Positions 5,545 to 29,575 of a DNA stretch of 64,000 nt are shown piece after piece. Numbering within the stretch: position 1 is the stretch's first letter; each line of letters begins with the position of its first letter. A program made the translations under genes and the position numbers. Source of the DNA: an uncultured Rubrobacteraceae bacterium (GTDB taxonomy: Bacteria; Actinomycetota; Rubrobacteria; Rubrobacterales; Rubrobacteraceae); the NCBI GenBank assembly GCA_902806095.1, contig CADCVF010000053.1:1-64000 (forward strand), given 5' to 3'. The notes below the pieces were generated by a model. It had not been told where the DNA came from, searched no databases, and was given only the letters and a program-made list of their open reading frames with translations.

Positions 5545-6120
5545 TCAGGTGGAGCTCCAGTTGTACTCCGTCTCCCGGGCCTCCCTGGGCCACAGGTACC
5601 CGAAAAACTCGAGCTTCTCTATCACCCTGCTGGCGCTCTCCTCCGGCGATTCCTCGTCGGTCTTGAGGACGAGGTCGGGGGCGTTCGGCGGCTCGTAAGG
5701 GTCCGAGACGCCCGTGAACTGCTCTATCTCCCCGGAGAAAGCCTTCTTGTAGAGGCCCTTCACGTCCCTCTCGGCGCAGACCTCGAGGGGAGCGTCGACG
5801 AAGACCTCGACAAAGTCCACGATCCTGCGCCTGACCTGGTCGCGCGCCTCCTTGTAAGGCGAGATGGCCGAGACGATCACACCAACCCCGTTGCGCGTGA
5901 GCAGGTTCGCCACGAAGCCTATCCTCAAGACGTTTATGTTACGGTCGTCCCTTGAGAAGCTGAGGCCCTTGGAGAGGTTGGTCCTCACGATGTCCCCGTC
6001 GAGGACCTCAACGGGCCGCTCCCTCTCGCGCAGCTCGCGCTCGACGATCTCGGATATGGTCGTCTTGCCTGACCCCGAGAGGCCGGTGAACCACAGGGTG
6101 AATCCGCGTTCTTCGTTCAT
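5545..6120 (-). CDS. cysC: Adenylylsulfate (APS) kinase
   Basis: LWFTGLSGSGKTTISEIVERELRERERPVEVLDGDIVRTNLSKGLSFSRDDRNINVLRIGFVA. Confidence 0.95.
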   Translation of the reverse strand: MNEERGFTLWFTGLSGSGKTTISEIVERELRERERPVEVLDGDIVRTNLSKGLSFSRDDRNINVLRIGFVANLLTRNGVGVIVSAISPYKEARDQVRRRIVDFVEVFVDAPLEVCAERDVKGLYKKAFSGEIEQFTGVSDPYEPPNAPDLVLKTDEESPEESASRVIEKLEFFGYLWPREARETEYNWSST

Positions 6121-9010: not shown

Positions 9011-9132
9011 CTGAAAGCGAGGCCGAAGGCCGAAGCGTTGCCGACAAGCGAGGGCCAAAGGCCCGAGCGTGCTGACAAGGCGCGAAGCGCAGTGCTGACA
9101 AGCGGAGGCGAAGCCGGAGCGTGCTGACACGC
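9011..9132 (-). repeat. Second tandem array of four hairpin units, abutting the sat stop codon
   Basis: Inserts GGCCgaaGGCC, GGGCCaaaGGCCC, GCGCgaaGCGC, GGCgaaGCC between aag(cg) and ag(cg)tgctgac; minus strand ends CTTTCAGCTTTTTTG. Confidence 0.85.
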
Positions 9133-10334
9133 TACCTGTTCTGCGTTCGCTGTCCCTGCATGAGTACTTCGATGACTTCGGGGCGGGAGAACTCGGGGGG
9201 CGGGTACTCGCCCTTGGAGAGCATCTCGCGCACCTTCGTGCCGCTAATAAACACGTGATTGACTTTATCGTGGGGGCAGGTCTTCGTAGTCCCCATCCCC
9301 TGGCATTGCAGGCAGAAGAAAGCGTGTTCGAAGAAGAGTGGGGTCAGGCCGATCTTCCCTTCCTCGAACTCATCGAAGATGTGTTGGGCGTCGTAGTCGC
9401 CGTAGAACGGCTTGCCGCTCGAGTCCTTGCCTGGTCCGGCGTGGTCGCGGCCCACGATAAAGTGTGTGCAGCCGTAGTTCTTGCGGCAGATCGCGTGGAA
9501 GATCGCCTCGCGGGGTCCCCCGTAGCGCATCGCCGCGGGGAAGACGGCAAGCATGGTCCGATCCTTCGGGTAGTAGCGCTCGAGGATCGTCTCGTAGGAG
9601 CGCATCCTGACGTCGGCGGGGATGTCCGCGGAGCGGGTCTCGCCGACGAGTGGGTTCAACAGTAGCCCGTCGACTATCTCGAGGGCGCTCTTCTGGATGT
9701 ACTCGTGCGAGCGGTGCACGGGGTTACGGGTCTGAAAACCGACGACGCGCTTCCAGCCTTTCTCCGCGAAGACTTCGCGCAGTCGGCGGGGCTCGTAGTG
9801 GTAGGTCGGGAAAGGCTTCGGGTTAGGGTCGTCTACGAGCAACGTTACCTCACCGCCGAGGAGTACATCCTTCTGGCGGTAGACGGCGGCGACGCCGGGG
9901 TGCTCAGGGCTGGTAGTGCCGAAGACCTCGCCGGCCTCGTGCTCCTTGTCGTATGAGTAGCGGTCCTCGACGATCATGGTCGCAAGCACGCGTCCGGCCT
10001 CGTCTGCGAGGGAGATCTCCTCGCCCACCCTTATCCCGTTCGCCTCTTCCTCGCTCACGGGGAGTGTGATCGGCAGGCTCCAGACCAGACCGTTCTTCAG
10101 GTGCATAGTCTCGACGACGCTCTCGTAGTCCTCACTGACCATAAAGCCAGTCAGGGGAGAGAAGACGCCGGTCGAGATCATCTCCAGATCAGAGAGAGCC
10201 CTCGGTCCAAGGGTTACCCTGACGAAGCCCTCGGCCCTACTGAGTAGCTCATCGCGCTGCTCTTCGGGCGCCCTGCGGTCGACGAGCTCGCCGCCGTGGG
10301 GGGCGATAGTAGTGTATTCGGTGCTGACGTTCAT
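9132..10334 (-). CDS. sat: Sulfate adenylyltransferase (ATP sulfurylase)
   Basis: [67 protein letters not shown]. Confidence 0.96.
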
Positions 10335-10672
10335 CGGTTTACCTCCGCGAGAATAGTGTCCTGCCTGGCCGGGAGCCTACGCAACAAGCGGCCGGCGAGG
10401 CCGGTCGCGCAGTGGTTCCAGGGACGTTCGCCGACGACCCAGAGCCTGAATTCACCCGCGTAAGAGCGCGAGATCTCCAGGAAACGCCCGTAGCCTATGC
10501 CGGCTACTTCGAGGTCGGTCCCCCAATGTTCCCAGAGGAGATCCGAGACAAAAGCGGCGTCGGCGATGACGCCGCTCCCCTCCTCGGGCGCGTCCTCGAG
10601 TAGGGCACGGGTCTCGGCCTTTACCTCTGTAGGCTCATCTGGCACAGGGAACCTCTTTATGGCGCCTTCCAA
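10331..10672 (-). CDS. Conserved-context hypothetical protein (113 aa) between frhB-like gene and sat
   Basis: 4-nt overlap with sat start; stop of upstream gene immediately adjacent; no family recognised. Confidence 0.75.
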
Positions 10673-11872
10673 CTAGTACCTCACCGCTTCGTGCTCGACC
10701 GGGGCGCGGTCCGTCCCGGCGTAGTCGTTCAGGTGCTCCTCGTAGTCTATGAATAGCGGGGCGTCGGGGTCGAAGGCCCGCTTGAGACTATTGAAGGCCA
10801 CCCGCTTGTCCAAACCGTTTAGCTTATCCAAAGCCTGCGGCTTGTCAAGGGGACGCAGTTCCAATCTATCCCTGACGCTGTCGAACGCGGCCAGGCCTTC
10901 TTCGCTCCTGAGGAGTACGCTTGAGTAACCGTCCGCGCTCCCGACGCTGCCCACGGAGATATCGGCCGCGTGCCCCATGAAGTCCGCGCACTCGTCGCAA
11001 CCCTTCAAGGCAGCCCCGTGGAAGTCCCTTATCGGCTCCTCGAAGATCGTCGCGCCTTCGAGGTCCTGGACGATCATCTTCCCGCGTATGATGTCGACCC
11101 GCCCTACTTGGTCGAGGTCGACGTTCCTCTTGTCCCTGATCTCCTGGAGCATCAACTTCTCGTAGTTGAAGCTCTTGGTACACAGCAGGGCTATCGTGAG
11201 CGTTATGGCCCCGACCTGTGAGCTGCCCCAGGTCCATGGCCTCGCCTGCATCGCCTTTATGCCCTCGATCTCACACGGCGTCCCGACGACCGCAATCCTT
11301 GGGTTCGGCGGCAGGTCGTATCCTCCGAAGTCGACGTGCCCTAGCGCAAGCGTCTGGTTGTAGAAGCTCCCCGCGCAACCGCGCACCTCCTCGGGCGTCG
11401 TCGCCAGGAAAGCCTCACCCTTCCAACGTTCGGACGCACTCTCGCGCGCCAGTAGGGCGCCGTCGATCTCACCGGCCTCCAGCAGCGAGACCAGGAGCGC
11501 GCTGACGAAGCCACCGTCCTGCACGCCGTCTATCCTCTGCCTGACGCGGGCCGTGTAGCTCTCCTCGACACGCCCCACTCCTTCGATGCTCTCGCCCTCT
11601 GGGCCTCCCGTAATCTTCCAGGTCGACTCGTACTGCAGGCCGCCGCGGGGGCAGAAATCCCAGCACAGCGAGCAGCCGGTGCACATCTTGACGAGCTCGG
11701 GAAGGTCGTCCCCGCCTATGCCGATGGAATCGGTGGGGCAGGCCGCGACGCACACGCCGCACTGCACGCAACGGTCGGCGTCGATCACCGCCTTCTCCAG
11801 ATCCCAGAACCAGACCTTGCCTGGAGCCTCGTCGATGTCGTTCATCATCTCCCTGATGTCGAAGCCGGCCAC
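10673..11872 (-). CDS. Coenzyme F420 hydrogenase/dehydrogenase beta subunit (FrhB/FpoF)-like protein with N-terminal 2x[4Fe-4S] ferredoxin domain
   Basis: CVQCGVCVAACPTDSIG and CTGCSLCWDFCPRGG ferredoxin motifs; VGTPCEIEGIKAMQ; LLCTKSFNYEKL; GAALKGCDECADFMGHAADISVGSVGSADGYSSVLLRSEEG; GTG start overlaps stop of sulfite reductase (TAGTG). Confidence 0.9.
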   Translation of the reverse strand: MAGFDIREMMNDIDEAPGKVWFWDLEKAVIDADRCVQCGVCVAACPTDSIGIGGDDLPELVKMCTGCSLCWDFCPRGGLQYESTWKITGGPEGESIEGVGRVEESYTARVRQRIDGVQDGGFVSALLVSLLEAGEIDGALLARESASERWKGEAFLATTPEEVRGCAGSFYNQTLALGHVDFGGYDLPPNPRIAVVGTPCEIEGIKAMQARPWTWGSSQVGAITLTIALLCTKSFNYEKLMLQEIRDKRNVDLDQVGRVDIIRGKMIVQDLEGATIFEEPIRDFHGAALKGCDECADFMGHAADISVGSVGSADGYSSVLLRSEEGLAAFDSVRDRLELRPLDKPQALDKLNGLDKRVAFNSLKRAFDPDAPLFIDYEEHLNDYAGTDRAPVEHEAVRY

Positions 11873-13536
11873 TATGGGCTCACCCCGCTCTCGACCGGCT
11901 TGCGCAGCGCCTTGCGCAGATCGGCGTTCTTCTTGCGTCTGGCCCACTCGTGGAAGCGCTCGCCCTCTCGCCGCTCTTCCTCGAACCGCTCGAAGACGGC
12001 AGCGAGGGCAGCGGGGACCTCCCCGGCCGGCTTCGCGCCCTCGACCCAGTCGATAAACGCAGCATCCTTGCCGAGAGAACCGCCGAGCCCTATGTCAACG
12101 CCCTCTACGATCGCGTCACGCGTCTTCGCGATCTCCCCGCGGAGGCCTATGTCCCCGATCTGGGGCTGCGCGCACGAGGCCGAGCAGCCCGAGAAGTGCA
12201 TCCTCACGGCCTCCTGGCCGAGATCCCCAACCCTCTCGTCCATCTCGCGGGCCCACTCCAAGGCCCTGATCTTGGTCTCGACGATGCCAAAGCGGCAGAA
12301 TTCGCTCCCCGTACAAGCCACGACACCGCGCTCGAACGCCCCAGGGTTTGGGGAGAACCGTGCCAGTAGAGACTCGGCCAGAAGTTCGTCGAGGCGGTCC
12401 TCAGAGACGCCAGTAACGATCAGGTTCTGGTCCGTGGCGAGACGGACTCCGTCCCCATACTCCCCTGCGAGCCTACCTGCCTCCTCGAAGTGCTCACCGC
12501 TCATCCTCCCCACAGGTACGTTGAGACCAACGTAGTAGAGGGCAGTTCGTGTAGGGGCGGTTCGCGAACCGCCCCTACGCTGGGCGTGGACCCCGATGTG
12601 ATCCCCACGGTACCTCTTCGTCAGGTCCTCTCCGGCGGGCGTGAGCCCGACAGAGACGCGCTTCGCAAGTTCTTCGCGGAAGCCCTCGGGACCGAGTTCC
12701 TGGACCAGGTAGCGCATCCTCGCCGTCCAGCGGTTCTCCCTGTTCCCGAGCTCGCCGAAGACCTGGGCTATGCCGCGGGTGATCTCGACCGCATCTTCGG
12801 GCCTGACGAAAACGTCGATATCCGAGGCCATCCTCGGGCCGTCGGAGAGGCCGCCACCCACACGTAGATTGAAGCCTAGCGTGCCCTCTTCCAGGCGGGC
12901 GGGGAGCATGCCGACGTCGTTGATCTCGGCCTGCGCGCAGTCCTCAAGGCATCCCGTAACGCTCATCTTGAACTTCCTCGGCAGGTTCGCGTACTCGCGG
13001 TTGCCGGTAAAGTAGGCTGAGATAGCCTGCGCCACCGGGAGAGCGTCTATGGCCTCGTCGTGGCCGAGGCCCGAGACGGGGCAACACAGGACGTTGCGGG
13101 CCGAGTCGCCGCAAGCCTGCACGGTCGTGATGCCGACCTCCTCCAGGCGGCGCCAGATCTCGGGCACGTTCTCCATCTTGATCCAATGCATCTGCACGTC
13201 CTGGCGCGTGGTCAGATCGAGGAAATTGTTCCCGAAGTGAGGGTTCGGAATAGGGCCGCGCGCGAAGTCAGCAGCTATCTTCCCGACTACCCTCGTCTGC
13301 TCGGGTGTAAGGACGCCGCCGGGGACTTTGATCCGCATCATGAAGGCGTCGCCACCCTGCTTCTGCGGATAGATGCCGACCCACTTCAGCCGCTCGACCT
13401 CGCCGGGGACATCGTCCATGGCCGAGAGGTCCTTCGAGTAGGTGTCTAGAATTGCCCCATACACCTCGAGGGGATGGCGCTCCTGCTTTATCTTCTCGAC
13501 CTTGTTCAAGGTCTGGTCGTTCTTGAGGAATCTCAT
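11872..13536 (-). CDS. Siroheme- and 4Fe-4S-dependent assimilatory sulfite reductase (NirA/ferredoxin-type)
   Basis: VACTGSEFCRFGIVETK (C-x5-C) and HFSGCSASCAQPQIGDIGLRG (C-x3-C); sits between cysH and sat; start ATG at 13536 (MRFLKNDQ). Confidence 0.9.
   Translation of the reverse strand: MRFLKNDQTLNKVEKIKQERHPLEVYGAILDTYSKDLSAMDDVPGEVERLKWVGIYPQKQGGDAFMMRIKVPGGVLTPEQTRVVGKIAADFARGPIPNPHFGNNFLDLTTRQDVQMHWIKMENVPEIWRRLEEVGITTVQACGDSARNVLCCPVSGLGHDEAIDALPVAQAISAYFTGNREYANLPRKFKMSVTGCLEDCAQAEINDVGMLPARLEEGTLGFNLRVGGGLSDGPRMASDIDVFVRPEDAVEITRGIAQVFGELGNRENRWTARMRYLVQELGPEGFREELAKRVSVGLTPAGEDLTKRYRGDHIGVHAQRRGGSRTAPTRTALYYVGLNVPVGRMSGEHFEEAGRLAGEYGDGVRLATDQNLIVTGVSEDRLDELLAESLLARFSPNPGAFERGVVACTGSEFCRFGIVETKIRALEWAREMDERVGDLGQEAVRMHFSGCSASCAQPQIGDIGLRGEIAKTRDAIVEGVDIGLGGSLGKDAAFIDWVEGAKPAGEVPAALAAVFERFEEERREGERFHEWARRKKNADLRKALRKPVESGVSP
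12551..12578. repeat. 28-bp perfect palindrome within sulfite reductase CDS
   Basis: GTAGGGGCGGTTCGCGAACCGCCCCTAC equals its own reverse complement; encodes RRGGSRTAPT in frame. Confidence 0.97.
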
Positions 13537-13576
13537 ATTGTGAAACCTGCTCTTTTTACGAGAGAATCTCTGAAGT

Positions 13577-14350
13577 TCAGGCGCCGGCGCGGCGGATCTG
13601 GCCGTCGTCGAAGTGGATGCCACACTCTGTCTTGTCGATTCCAGCCCACCGGCCGGCCCTGGGATCCTCGTCGTGGTGCACGGGCCTCGTCTGCGGCTCG
13701 CAGCCGATGCTCTTGTAGCCCTGATGCAGGAGCGGGTTGACGGGCACGTCGTGTGCCCTCACGTAGTCCCACACCTGCGCTTCCGTCCAGTCAGGCATGG
13801 GCGCTATCTTGGCGGCCTCGTAGCGCTCCTCCCAGGCAATGACCTTCGTGCCAGCCCTCTGAGGAGTCTGCTCCCTGCGGATGCCTGTCATCCAGGCGTC
13901 GTAGCGGTTCAGGGCTTTTTGCAGGGGTTCGATCTTGCGTATCTGGCAGCACAGGTGCGGGGTACAGGTTCGCATCTGCTCGCCGTAGATCTCTACCTGC
14001 TCCTCGATCGTAAGCTCGGGTTTCAAGACCTCGACCGGCAGCTTGTAGCGTCGCATGACTTCCTCGCGGAAGTCGGCAGTCTCTTTGAAGATAAAACCCG
14101 TGTCGATGGTCAGGACGGTGACCTTGTCTGTGACCTTGGAGATCATGTCGAGAAGCGCCATCCCCTCTCCCCCGCCGAACGAAGCAGAGAGAGCAAGACC
14201 CTCACCGTAAGTCTCGACAGCCCACTCTATTATCTCCCACGGTTCAGCACCCTCGAGTAGCTCGGACTCCCGCTCGAGCGCCACCAGCCCGGGTAATATT
14301 CTGTCGTTATGCTTCGAACGCAGGGATTCGTGCATCGCGCGATCCTCCAA
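13577..14350 (-). CDS. cysH: Phosphoadenylyl/adenylyl-sulfate reductase
   Basis: LALSASFGGGEGMALLDMI, CTPHLCCQIRKIEPLQKAL, TGIRREQTPQRAG, KTECGIH. Confidence 0.93.
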   Translation of the reverse strand: MEDRAMHESLRSKHNDRILPGLVALERESELLEGAEPWEIIEWAVETYGEGLALSASFGGGEGMALLDMISKVTDKVTVLTIDTGFIFKETADFREEVMRRYKLPVEVLKPELTIEEQVEIYGEQMRTCTPHLCCQIRKIEPLQKALNRYDAWMTGIRREQTPQRAGTKVIAWEERYEAAKIAPMPDWTEAQVWDYVRAHDVPVNPLLHQGYKSIGCEPQTRPVHHDEDPRAGRWAGIDKTECGIHFDDGQIRRAGA

Positions 14351-15847: not shown

Positions 15848-16591
15848 CTACCGAAACATGTCCCTATCGGGTGGCATGAGGAGCTCTGTGGCGCTGCCGG
15901 GAGCGGACGAGTACGCATACCCCCGCACGATGGCCAGCGGGATTCCGTCGGTCTTGCCCATTACCAGCTCGGCGGCGGCGGCGAGCTCGTCGGCCACGGC
16001 GAGTACGCTCGCCTCCATGGGGTAGCCGTGCGGGTCTGGCTGTCCTCTGTAGTCCGCGACAGGGTCCATGCCTGCGACACCGATGGCGACGTCTGTTATG
16101 CCGTGCCGCCAGGCCCGCCCGAACGAGTCCGAGATCACCACGGCCACCTCGACGCCGGGGTCTTCGGCGAGCGCGTCGCGGAGTCTCGCCGCGGAGGCAT
16201 CAGGGTCCACGGGAAGCAGGCAGACGGTGTCGTCGCCGGGAACGTTCGAGGCGTCTACGCCGGCGTTGGCGCAGACGAAACCGTGGTGGGTCTCCGTGAT
16301 GACTATGCCGCGGTCCATGCGTACGATGCGGCGACTCTCTCTCAACACGACCTCGATCTGGCGCGGGTCTTTCCCGTAGCGCGCCGCGTAACCTTTAGCG
16401 AGCGTGGAGGGCTCGACCGTGCGAAGGTCGACAAGACGGCCCTCGGCCTTGCTGACGATCTTGTGCGTCACGACGAGCACGTCGCGGGGACGCAGGTCTG
16501 TTGCTACTGCGCCCGAGATCATACGGTTTATGTCGTCATCGGTACGCACCTCGGGGAAGCCTTCGACGCCAAGAACCTCGATCCCCCTCAC
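15848..16591 (-). CDS. cofE: Coenzyme F420-0:L-glutamate ligase
   Basis: LVVTHKIVSKAEGRLVDL, SDSFGRAWRHGITDVAIGVAGM typical of CofE/FbiB N-terminal domain. Confidence 0.93.
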   Translation of the reverse strand: MRGIEVLGVEGFPEVRTDDDINRMISGAVATDLRPRDVLVVTHKIVSKAEGRLVDLRTVEPSTLAKGYAARYGKDPRQIEVVLRESRRIVRMDRGIVITETHHGFVCANAGVDASNVPGDDTVCLLPVDPDASAARLRDALAEDPGVEVAVVISDSFGRAWRHGITDVAIGVAGMDPVADYRGQPDPHGYPMEASVLAVADELAAAAELVMGKTDGIPLAIVRGYAYSSAPGSATELLMPPDRDMFR

Positions 16592-17202
16592 TGGCGTGCT
16601 ACCCCGGTCTTCCTGAGGTGGGCGAGGTCCCCCGCCGTGTCCAGGTCGAAAGCTAGGTGGGGCCGCTTGCAGACACTGACGCCTATGCCACGCCTGCGGG
16701 CAGTTGCGAGGTGTGCCTCGAAGCTATCGGTCCCGAAGGCGAAGTGTAGGACGTCGGGGGGTTGGATCAGGAGCGCGTTCGTACCTGAACGCGCCCCGTC
16801 GGGAGAGATGGCTACAGAAGGCCCCTCACCCGCCTCCTTCAGTACCGCCAGTACGTCCTCCGCGTCGAGGAGCGGGAGGTCAGCGGGGAGCACGAGCAGC
16901 GCCTGGGCACCGAGCTCCAGCGCCCTTCTGCGTCCTTCTTCGAGGGCCGGATTGAGCCCGCGGCTCTCCTGGACTAGCGGCGTTGCGCCGCGTCTGCTTG
17001 CCTCTTCCAGAACCATTCGGTCTGGGCTGACCACGCAGACGTCCACGACCCCGGCATCCAGGATCGCACGCACGACCCGGCCCATCATGTACAGGGTGAG
17101 CCCGGCTCTGGCACCGGGATCGAGGACAGGCGCCAGGCGACTCTTGGTGTCTCGCAGGTCTTTGACTGGAACTACCGCGTATACGCCGGTAGCCTCGCTC
17201 AA
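16588..17202 (-). CDS. cofC: 2-phospho-L-lactate (PEP) guanylyltransferase
   Basis: VPVKDLRDTKSRLAPVL ... LVLPADLPLLDAEDV typical of CofC/FbiD; overlaps cofE and cofD by 4 nt. Confidence 0.92.
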   Translation of the reverse strand: MSEATGVYAVVPVKDLRDTKSRLAPVLDPGARAGLTLYMMGRVVRAILDAGVVDVCVVSPDRMVLEEASRRGATPLVQESRGLNPALEEGRRRALELGAQALLVLPADLPLLDAEDVLAVLKEAGEGPSVAISPDGARSGTNALLIQPPDVLHFAFGTDSFEAHLATARRRGIGVSVCKRPHLAFDLDTAGDLAHLRKTGVARQ

Positions 17203-18140
17203 TGCACCACCATCCCAGCACCGAATTCCAGTGTTTCCGACGCGAGGCGCCTACGGTCTTCGGCGTCGCGCATCACCGACTCGGTCGCGAGGACGCGCAT
17301 CCCGATGGCCTCGATGCCGACCCGCTCCCTCTCGTCGGTCAGGTCGACGACCATCCCATCCACCAGGCCTGTGTATATCCTGGCTACTCCCGTAGATGAG
17401 ACCTCATGGCCGAGTGAGGCGAGCATCCTGTCCGCCGGACCCTTGAGCGCCCGTCCGCCGACGATCGGGCTGACAGCCACCTTCGGGGCTGAGGATGAGG
17501 TCAGGGCCTCCATCATCCCGGACAGGGCCAGGATCGGGCCGATGCTAACGATGGGGTTCGACGGACACAAGACAATGGTGTCTGCGCCACTGATCGCCGC
17601 AAGGACGCCTTCCGCTGGCCTGGCTTCCTCGATACCGCGCAGTTCTACCCCAAGCACCTCGTCCCTCTGCCGGCGGCGCACGAAGTATTCCTGGAACTCG
17701 AGCCGGCCTTCTGGGGTCTCGAGTACCGTCGAGACAGGCTCGTCGCTCATCGGCAGTACAACGCTCTCCACGCCCAGAGCGCCAGCTAGTCCCGCTGTTA
17801 CCTCCGTCAACGTCTCCCCTGAGATCATGCGGTGCGTTCTGAGTACATGGGTGCCAATGTCCCTGTCGCCGAGCTTGAACCAGATATTCTCACCGTAGCG
17901 TTCGAGCATGTTCAAGGTCTCGAAGGACTCGTCTGCGATGCCCCAGCCGGTCTCGGGATTGGAGATCCCGGCCAGCGTGTACATGACCGTGTCGAGGTCG
18001 GGGCAGATGTGCAGACCCCAGAGGTCGAAGTCGTCGGCGGTGTTGACTACCACAGAGAGATCCCCCGGTGGCAGCACGTCCTGCAGACCACTCGCAAGTT
18101 TCGCGCCGCCTACCCCGCCAGCGAGGGCACAGACCTTCAT
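17199..18140 (-). CDS. cofD: 2-phospho-L-lactate transferase
   Basis: LAGGVGGAKLASGLQDVL ... NTADDFDLWGLHICPDLDTVMYTLAG ... CPSNPIVSIGPILAL typical of CofD/FbiA. Confidence 0.95.
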   Translation of the reverse strand: MKVCALAGGVGGAKLASGLQDVLPPGDLSVVVNTADDFDLWGLHICPDLDTVMYTLAGISNPETGWGIADESFETLNMLERYGENIWFKLGDRDIGTHVLRTHRMISGETLTEVTAGLAGALGVESVVLPMSDEPVSTVLETPEGRLEFQEYFVRRRQRDEVLGVELRGIEEARPAEGVLAAISGADTIVLCPSNPIVSIGPILALSGMMEALTSSSAPKVAVSPIVGGRALKGPADRMLASLGHEVSSTGVARIYTGLVDGMVVDLTDERERVGIEAIGMRVLATESVMRDAEDRRRLASETLEFGAGMVVH

Positions 18141-28558: not shown

Positions 28559-29575
28559 GTGATGCTCGACGCCGGCCTCGGCACAGAGGGCGATTACCTG
28601 AGAGGTATAGACCAGACTGCCCGCTCGGCCGAAGACTTTGGCTTCGCCGGCCTGTGGACGAGTGAGACGAAACACGACGCGTTCCTACCCCTGGCCATAG
28701 CCGCCAACGAGACGCGCGAGATCGAGCTCGGCACCTCTGTAGCCATCGCCTTCTCACGCTCACCTATGGAGACGGCCCAGGCCGCATGGGACCTCCAGTA
28801 CCTCTCCAAAGGCCGCTTCGTGCTCGGCCTTGGCACACAGGTCAAGGCCCACATAACCCGTCGCTTCTCGATGCCCTGGGATAGGCCCGCCGCTAGATTA
28901 CGCGAGTACATCATGGCCGTGCGCGCGATCTGGGCGTCCTTCCAGGGCGAGGGACCACTGCAGTTCGAAGGCGAGTTCTACAGGCACACCCTGATGACGC
29001 CGTTCTTCAACCCGGGACCTATAGATCACCCTGAGATCCCGGTCTACATAGCGGGCGTCAACACCCGTCTCGCCACGCTCGCCGGGGAGATCTGCGACGG
29101 CTTCCACGTCCACCCGTTCCACTCCCCCGAGTACGTAAGGCAGACCGTCAAGCCCGCCATAGCAGAGGGCGCAGAAGGAGTCGGCCGCGACCCGGAAGAG
29201 GTCACGCTCGCGACGAGCGCTTTCGTCATCTCATCCGAGAAGGAAGCGGAAGCCAAAGAGCAAAGGGAGTCTGTACGGGCCCAGATCTCGTTCTACGCCT
29301 CGACCCCGACCTACCGCACCGTCCTCGAAGCCCACGGCTGGGAAGAGGTCGGCGAAAGGTTGGGCGCGATGGCCCGCGAGAAGAAGTGGCGCGAGATGCC
29401 TGCCCTCATCTCCGACGAGATGCTCGCGGCGTTTGCCGTCGAATCGACCCCGGATGAGATCGGGGCCGCGATAAGGGAGCGCTACGAAGGTCTCATAGAC
29501 CGCGTCGCGCTCTACATCCCGTTTGTGGCAGGCGAGCAGGATGGATTCTGGCGCAAAGTGCTCTACCGATTCTGA
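28559..29575 (+). CDS. LLM-class F420-dependent oxidoreductase
   Basis: DFGFAGLWTSETKHDAFLPLAIAANETREIELGTSVAIAFSRSPMETAQAAWDLQYLSKGRFVLGLGTQVKAHI. Confidence 0.88.
   Translation: MMLDAGLGTEGDYLRGIDQTARSAEDFGFAGLWTSETKHDAFLPLAIAANETREIELGTSVAIAFSRSPMETAQAAWDLQYLSKGRFVLGLGTQVKAHITRRFSMPWDRPAARLREYIMAVRAIWASFQGEGPLQFEGEFYRHTLMTPFFNPGPIDHPEIPVYIAGVNTRLATLAGEICDGFHVHPFHSPEYVRQTVKPAIAEGAEGVGRDPEEVTLATSAFVISSEKEAEAKEQRESVRAQISFYASTPTYRTVLEAHGWEEVGERLGAMAREKKWREMPALISDEMLAAFAVESTPDEIGAAIRERYEGLIDRVALYIPFVAGEQDGFWRKVLYRF

Follow-up and report, generated by a model that had tools for sequence, protein, structure and literature searches.

The window examined here is a 64,000-nucleotide stretch of contig CADCVF010000053.1 of an uncultured Rubrobacteraceae bacterium, a soil actinobacterium; the named genomes closest to it are Rubrobacter bins. 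It contains a sulfate assimilation operon in which a siroheme/[4Fe-4S] sulfite reductase gene (sir, alpha) is directly followed by a gene for an FrhB-like protein (beta). The two products probably constitute a two-subunit assimilatory sulfite reductase fed by F420H2, the arrangement called 'aFsr'; a rough probability of 0.78 is assigned to this reading. It is preferred because the sequences, the predicted fold, the gene order conserved in two domains of life, the co-occurrence with F420 genes and the absence of a CysJ-type flavoprotein point to it. The original prediction, made from the DNA letters of the window, had proposed F420H2-fed sulfite reduction by two coupled subunits, and this proposal is supported at the level of sequence.

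Organization of the locus

On the minus strand the order is cofD-cofC-cofE, a major facilitator superfamily (MFS) gene, then cysH, sir, the frhB-like gene, a small gene and sat. Downstream of sat, on the same strand, a sulfotransferase gene, a sulfatase-like gene and apsK follow. The features are listed below.

17199..18140, minus strand: cofD, 2-phospho-L-lactate transferase (TIGR01819 above cut-off)
16588..17202, minus strand: cofC, guanylyltransferase of F420 synthesis (TIGR03552 above cut-off)
15848..16591, minus strand: cofE, F420-0:glutamate ligase (TIGR01916 above cut-off)
13577..14335, minus strand: cysH, reductase of the adenylyl sulfate/phosphoadenylyl sulfate (APS/PAPS) type (PF01507, NF002537/TIGR00434 above cut-off)
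11872..13536, minus strand: sir (alpha), siroheme/[4Fe-4S] two-repeat sulfite reductase of the NirA/SirA type (NIR_SIR, NIR_SIR_ferr)
10673..11872, minus strand: frhB-like gene (beta), 399 amino acids, GTG start at 11872 (PF04422 and PF04432 above cut-off; PDB; Foldseek)
10331..10672, minus strand: small gene of no known family, 113 amino acids, all-helical product (conservation after the frhB-like gene)
9132..10334, minus strand: sat, ATP sulfurylase (NF003166 552 bits, TIGR00339 460 bits, both above cut-off)
5545..6120, minus strand: apsK, adenylyl-sulfate kinase (TIGR00455 above cut-off)
28559..29575, plus strand: F420-dependent luciferase-like monooxygenase (LLM) type oxidoreductase outside the operon (TIGR03617 476 bits, cut-off 278)

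The TAG of sir and the GTG of the frhB-like gene share one base (TAGTG), the small gene begins one base past the frhB-like stop, and its own stop overlaps the ATG of sat (ATGA). Since their stops and starts touch or overlap, these four genes look translationally coupled. The start of cysH is the ATG at 14335, with GGAGG upstream, in an open reading frame (ORF) readable from 14350; the sir ORF is open from a GTG at 13623 (583 amino acids), its probable start being the ATG at 13536. The gap of about 1.5 kb between cofE and cysH holds the single MFS gene. No RNA families were found near the operon. The gene order is not due to chance, because the same order occurs in Rubrobacteria, Acidimicrobiia and Chloroflexota and, reduced to the pair, in haloarchaea.

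The original prediction had described most of this layout, and the FrhB/FpoF-like gene overlapping the end of sir (at 11872), the cysH-to-sat operon, the cof genes about 1.5 kb upstream of cysH (15848-18140) and the LLM enzyme at 28.6 kb could all be confirmed; the gene order was in addition found to recur in relatives. The range then proposed, 10331-14350, stops at the start of sat and leaves out both sat and apsK, which are genes of the same pathway. The LLM oxidoreductase suggests that the host uses F420.

The FrhB-like subunit

The FrhB-like protein has two N-terminal [4Fe-4S] ferredoxin motifs followed by the FrhB N and C domains (PF04422, PF04432), which score well above the cut-offs, and it is the sole PF04432 match in the genome. 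Its best matches among the PDB sequences were 8RIU, the F420 subunit of an ethanotroph CO dehydrogenase (E 9e-39), Fsr (2e-37) and FrhB (1e-28); plant 7-hydroxymethyl chlorophyll a reductase (HCAR) matched far more weakly (6e-4), and a profile search of the PDB sequences returned the same ranking. Most of the FrhB domain is good in the AlphaFold2 (AF2) model, and a Foldseek search with this predicted structure recovered the same set of proteins as the sequence searches, HCAR among them, with most FrhB structures at template modelling (TM) scores of 0.79-0.83 by target length.

The cluster of FrhB is held by Cys104, 134, 192 and 195 (PMC3591093). These correspond to C200, C231, C292 and C295 of the FrhB-like protein, which are invariant in 23 of 23 bacterial and haloarchaeal sequences, as are its eight ferredoxin cysteines; all 12 cluster cysteines are thus kept. 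The QDGG helix start is present in all 23 aligned proteins and the S-V-G-S-V-G-S loop in most of them, and the flavin motifs are retained. The two N-terminal motifs noticed earlier are therefore real and invariant in every aligned relative. The checks made on motifs and fold did not refute the function proposed for the protein. Judged by its sequence, the protein is a member of the F420-oxidising family.

In haloarchaea the FrhB-like proteins bear N-terminal extensions of about 100-174 residues, partly cysteine-rich (CGCG...-type; L125:5479-7203, L124:5482-7200, L126:5692-7203).

F420 genes and the electron donor

F420 genes were detected in 49 of the 50 pair carriers tested: CofD scored above the curated cut-off in 46, was truncated at a contig end in one more, and CofH was present in two more. 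In the phylum sample all seven carriers outside the class (four families) had both CofD and CofH, and about half of the other genomes had CofD. No enrichment was observed in the Chloroflexota class, with CofD in four of five carriers versus 124 of 158 genomes overall. With one exception in 50 the survey does not refute the link to F420 biosynthesis proposed earlier.

The position of the F420 genes beside the pair is stronger evidence than their co-occurrence with it. Many Rubrobacteria have cofD-C-E immediately upstream of the operon, and in 14 genomes fbiC is found on the same contig as the frhB-like gene, 8-16 kb away. In the class, which comprises 40 Rubrobacteria genomes of one family (22 of them high-quality), fbiC was above cut-off in 28 of the 40, often near the operon.

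Several observations weigh against F420H2 as the donor. The single exception among the carriers, a Thermomicrobiaceae metagenome bin of unknown completeness (G402), possesses the pair and neither CofD nor CofH. F420 genes are frequent in these groups regardless of the pair, occurring in about half of the genomes of the phylum sample and in 78% of those in the class of G402, so that co-occurrence is consistent with the proposal, not decisive, and alone constitutes modest evidence. In the assembly of the source genome (98.6% complete) fbiC was not found, although cofC, cofD and cofE are present. As to the source of F420H2, no Fno or Fgd equivalog scored above cut-off as F420 reductase; weaker Fgd-like proteins are present, one of 225 bits in the source genome. 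Finally, the AF2 model is weak over the first 96 residues of the FrhB-like protein. The missing fbiC was not accepted as evidence against F420, given its presence in 28 of 40 class genomes: the contig begins at base 1 of the window, about where the relatives carry fbiC, and the gene has probably been cut off at the contig end. An Fgd-like LLM gene of the source genome (G000:C77:26651-27193) has an in-frame TGA within the match and is possibly a decayed copy.

Other donors were also considered. A CysJ-type flavoprotein (FAD_binding_1) was found in none of the 22 high-quality class genomes, nor in the source genome, and CysJ was rejected as donor on these grounds; the system differs in this respect from the NADPH sulfite reductase CysIJ, which has such a partner. 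Plant HCAR belongs to the same superfamily as the FrhB-like protein and uses ferredoxin. The FrhB-like protein could in a similar manner feed Sir from another donor, for example NAD(P)H or reduced ferredoxin; the Foldseek match to HCAR and the carrier bin lacking F420 genes would allow this, and sequence alone offers no diagnostic F420-binding residue. This is unlikely, however, since the F420 enzymes match far better in sequence scores and somewhat better in fold scores, F420 genes accompany nearly all carriers, and cof and fbiC genes flank the operon in Rubrobacteria. Moreover, a Sir of the NirA/SirA type could accept electrons straight from ferredoxin, and an intervening flavin step would then seem to serve no purpose.

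Distribution and common origin of the pair

The pair is widespread and of old origin. The frhB-like gene was found in 34 of the 40 Rubrobacteria genomes, and sir adjoins it wherever the flanks are present. In a scan of named genomes 235 relatives came up. The 80 best belonged to Rubrobacteria, Acidimicrobiia and Thermomicrobia-type bins, and practically all loci that extended far enough had sir immediately upstream. Across three bacterial groups the two genes are adjacent, frequently with a stop/start overlap of 1 or 4 bases. The pair is also present in five of the 158 genomes of one Chloroflexota class. On haloarchaeal plasmids it occurs either by itself, with identities to the window proteins reaching 53-55%, or in a form whose Sir is joined to rhodanese domains. 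A natural sir-frhB fusion, sought as proof of contact, was found in none of about 115 loci, the ORFs being separate throughout.

The 23 FrhB-paired Sirs all fell into one clade (support 99/98) of a maximum-likelihood tree, and the unpaired bacterial and haloarchaeal Sirs, nitrite reductases included, lay outside it. The pairing label required a single change on this tree, as against 9.6 with shuffled labels. From this single clade it follows that the Sir-FrhB coupling probably arose once and then spread over two domains. The distances of Sir and FrhB are correlated (r 0.91; 0.78 in bacteria); this value was given no weight as evidence, since common descent by itself would account for it.

These data also bear on the possibility that Sir runs on ordinary ferredoxin, as M. 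tuberculosis NirA/SirA does, and that the FrhB-like protein is an independent F420 enzyme encoded in the same operon, where it might for instance deliver reductant to CysH. Ferredoxin-dependent nitrite and sulfite reductases are indeed the closest solved relatives of Sir, and related Sirs occur without an frhB neighbour in annotated Bacillus-type, Tsukamurella and Deinococcus loci. The frhB-like gene, however, tracks sir and not cysH or sat: the pair stands alone in haloarchaea, and in Acidimicrobiia the genes beyond the third gene vary. Together with the single clade of paired Sirs and the frequent stop/start overlaps this makes a separate enzyme quite improbable, and a coupled F420H2-fed pair remains the preferred reading.

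The sulfite reductase subunit

Two stretches each of NIR_SIR and NIR_SIR_ferr were detected in Sir, corresponding to two repeats, and the domain search gave no inserted ferredoxin (Fer4) domain. Its PDB relatives are plant nitrite reductase and M. tuberculosis NirA. Both the sulfite-binding set of four basic residues and the CX5C..CX3C cluster motif have been defined previously (PMC10229431); Sir keeps R97, R176, K217 and K219 as well as C437, C443, C480 and C484 (numbering of the 583-residue ORF). The second lysine, K219, is present in every aligned FrhB-paired Sir, while N takes its place in the haloarchaeal relatives beside nasA (assimilatory nitrate reductase) and in the plant nitrite reductase among the PDB matches. 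The R,R,K,K signature and the cysH/sat context thus make sulfite the likely substrate. That the siroheme enzyme reduces nitrite and not sulfite is hardly credible: its relatives are labelled ferredoxin--nitrite reductase in databases and sulfite reductases often reduce nitrite too, but sir sits between cysH and sat and has a lysine where the nitrite reductases just mentioned have N.

A perfect 22-bp palindrome, GGGGCGGTTCGCGAACCGCCCC, lies at 12554-12575 inside sir and is read through in frame. It is part of an insertion of about 10 residues missing in most relatives, and the window contains it only once. In Natronococcus and Halomontanus the paired Sir carries N-terminal rhodanese domains (L127:3556-5955, L129:2104-4644).

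The third gene of the unit

The small gene directly follows the pair in 73 of the 77 bacterial loci that have sequence there, with identities of its product down to about 30%. Nine residues (W50, E74, W78, G81, R83, W85, G94, R98 and R99) are invariant in 46 sequences, and the AF2 model is a confident six-helix fold (pLDDT, the predicted local distance difference test score, 91). No convincing match was obtained in Pfam, NCBIfam, PHROGs, PDB sequences, plasmid records or Foldseek. One locus (L080:6386-7627) encodes the protein as part of an in-frame fusion of 414 amino acids with a CysD-like PAPS_reduct domain. Since the haloarchaeal loci are without the small gene, the chemistry can probably proceed without its product, which in bacteria would probably act as an accessory subunit or an assembly factor. 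It was also considered whether the protein is hidden in the N-terminal extension of the haloarchaeal FrhB-like proteins, but the extension gave no match to the small-protein profile and the idea was rejected. A stronger version, in which the enzyme of Actinomycetota and Chloroflexota is a three-subunit F420H2-dependent assimilatory sulfite reductase with the small protein as an obligatory subunit or cofactor-loading factor of a new family, is tentative, with chances somewhat short of even.

The CysH of the operon

The CysH of the window keeps the CC pair, and its CxxC motif reads CEPQ. The fourth cysteine of the APS-reductase cluster motif CC...CxxC is lost in most such operons (L041-L120). 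The window and 14 further Rubrobacteria loci have Q in its place, 42 loci (mostly Acidimicrobiia) have T and one has P, while the CxxC is intact in seven Rubrobacteria loci.

Proposed route of electrons

We infer that F420H2 is the donor, that the two subunits form a physical complex with the docking site given below, and that the third protein assists them. A hydride of F420H2 would be passed to the flavin adenine dinucleotide (FAD) of the FrhB-like subunit, from which electrons would travel one at a time through the FrhB-type [4Fe-4S] cluster to the two N-terminal ferredoxin-type clusters. These may dock at the site used by ferredoxin on NirA/SirA enzymes, so that the siroheme-[4Fe-4S] of Sir could take up the electrons and reduce sulfite to sulfide in a six-electron reaction. 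The sulfite would be supplied by Sat and CysH, possibly with ApsK, encoded in the same operon. In bacteria the small helical protein would probably take part in one of the two supporting roles suggested above.

Relation to known systems

The enzyme class itself is not new. Susanti and Mukhopadhyay proposed it in 2012 under the name 'aFsr', as a putative haloarchaeal sulfite reductase of the assimilatory type that would depend on F420H2 and has its aSir and Fsr-N-like parts in separate subunits, and Rubrobacter xylanophilus Rxyl_0964 and Thermobaculum terrenum already appear on their tree (PMC3448663). The label was reused in 2022 (PMC9295563). The pertinent passages of these two papers, the only ones in the open-licence literature whose full text combined this name with F420 and sulfite reductase, contain no report of aFsr activity. 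The window proteins resemble aFsr in that alpha is of the aSir type (two repeats, CX5C..CX3C, R,R,K,K), beta combines an FrhB domain with two N-terminal ferredoxin-type [4Fe-4S] centres, and the adjacent genes are homologous to the haloarchaeal pair and their Sirs belong to the same clade. They differ in the third conserved gene of the bacterial unit, which haloarchaea lack, and in the setting, since in Rubrobacteria the pair is part of a cysH/sat operon among F420 biosynthesis genes, while the aFsr passages of the 2012 text concern haloarchaea. What is new here is the bacterial spread, the single clade, the linkage to F420 genes and the conserved third gene.

The methanogen enzyme Fsr (group I) provides the precedent for an F420H2 oxidase coupled to a sulfite reductase (PMC10229431). 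It follows the logic proposed for the window system, in that an FrhB-type oxidase bearing two N-terminal ferredoxin clusters is joined to a siroheme-[4Fe-4S] centre, and it shares the R,R,K,K active site and the CX5C..CX3C motif. Fsr, however, is one polypeptide, whereas the window has two and the ORFs are separate in all loci; and its sulfite reductase domain is single-repeat and Dsr-like with an inserted ferredoxin domain, in contrast to the two-repeat aSir without the insertion. The closest solved relatives of the FrhB-like subunit, 8RIU and FrhB, serve other partner enzymes and other reactions. In the ethanotroph CO dehydrogenase an add-on subunit switches a normally ferredoxin-linked enzyme type to F420 (PMC11493965). 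M. tuberculosis NirA/SirA agrees with the window Sir in sequence family and active-site residues, but it depends on ferredoxin and has no FrhB partner, and unpaired Sirs related to it lie outside the paired clade.

Biological implications

The known roles of F420 in bacteria are mostly those of LLM-type enzymes and related side reactions. If the pair works as proposed, many bacteria of soil, peat and hot springs would run central sulfur assimilation on F420H2, and F420 would have a core metabolic role outside methanogens, the sulfide for cysteine being made from F420H2. Should the three-subunit version hold, bacteria would have a sulfate assimilation route that runs on F420H2 instead of NADPH or ferredoxin. 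The proposed pathway is concealed by the database name of these genes, ferredoxin--nitrite reductase. If the pair works as proposed, the idea of 2012 would also turn into an enzyme open to experiment in cultured hosts (Rubrobacter, Haloferax mediterranei), and the split enzyme would offer a natural comparison for the assembly history of Fsr.

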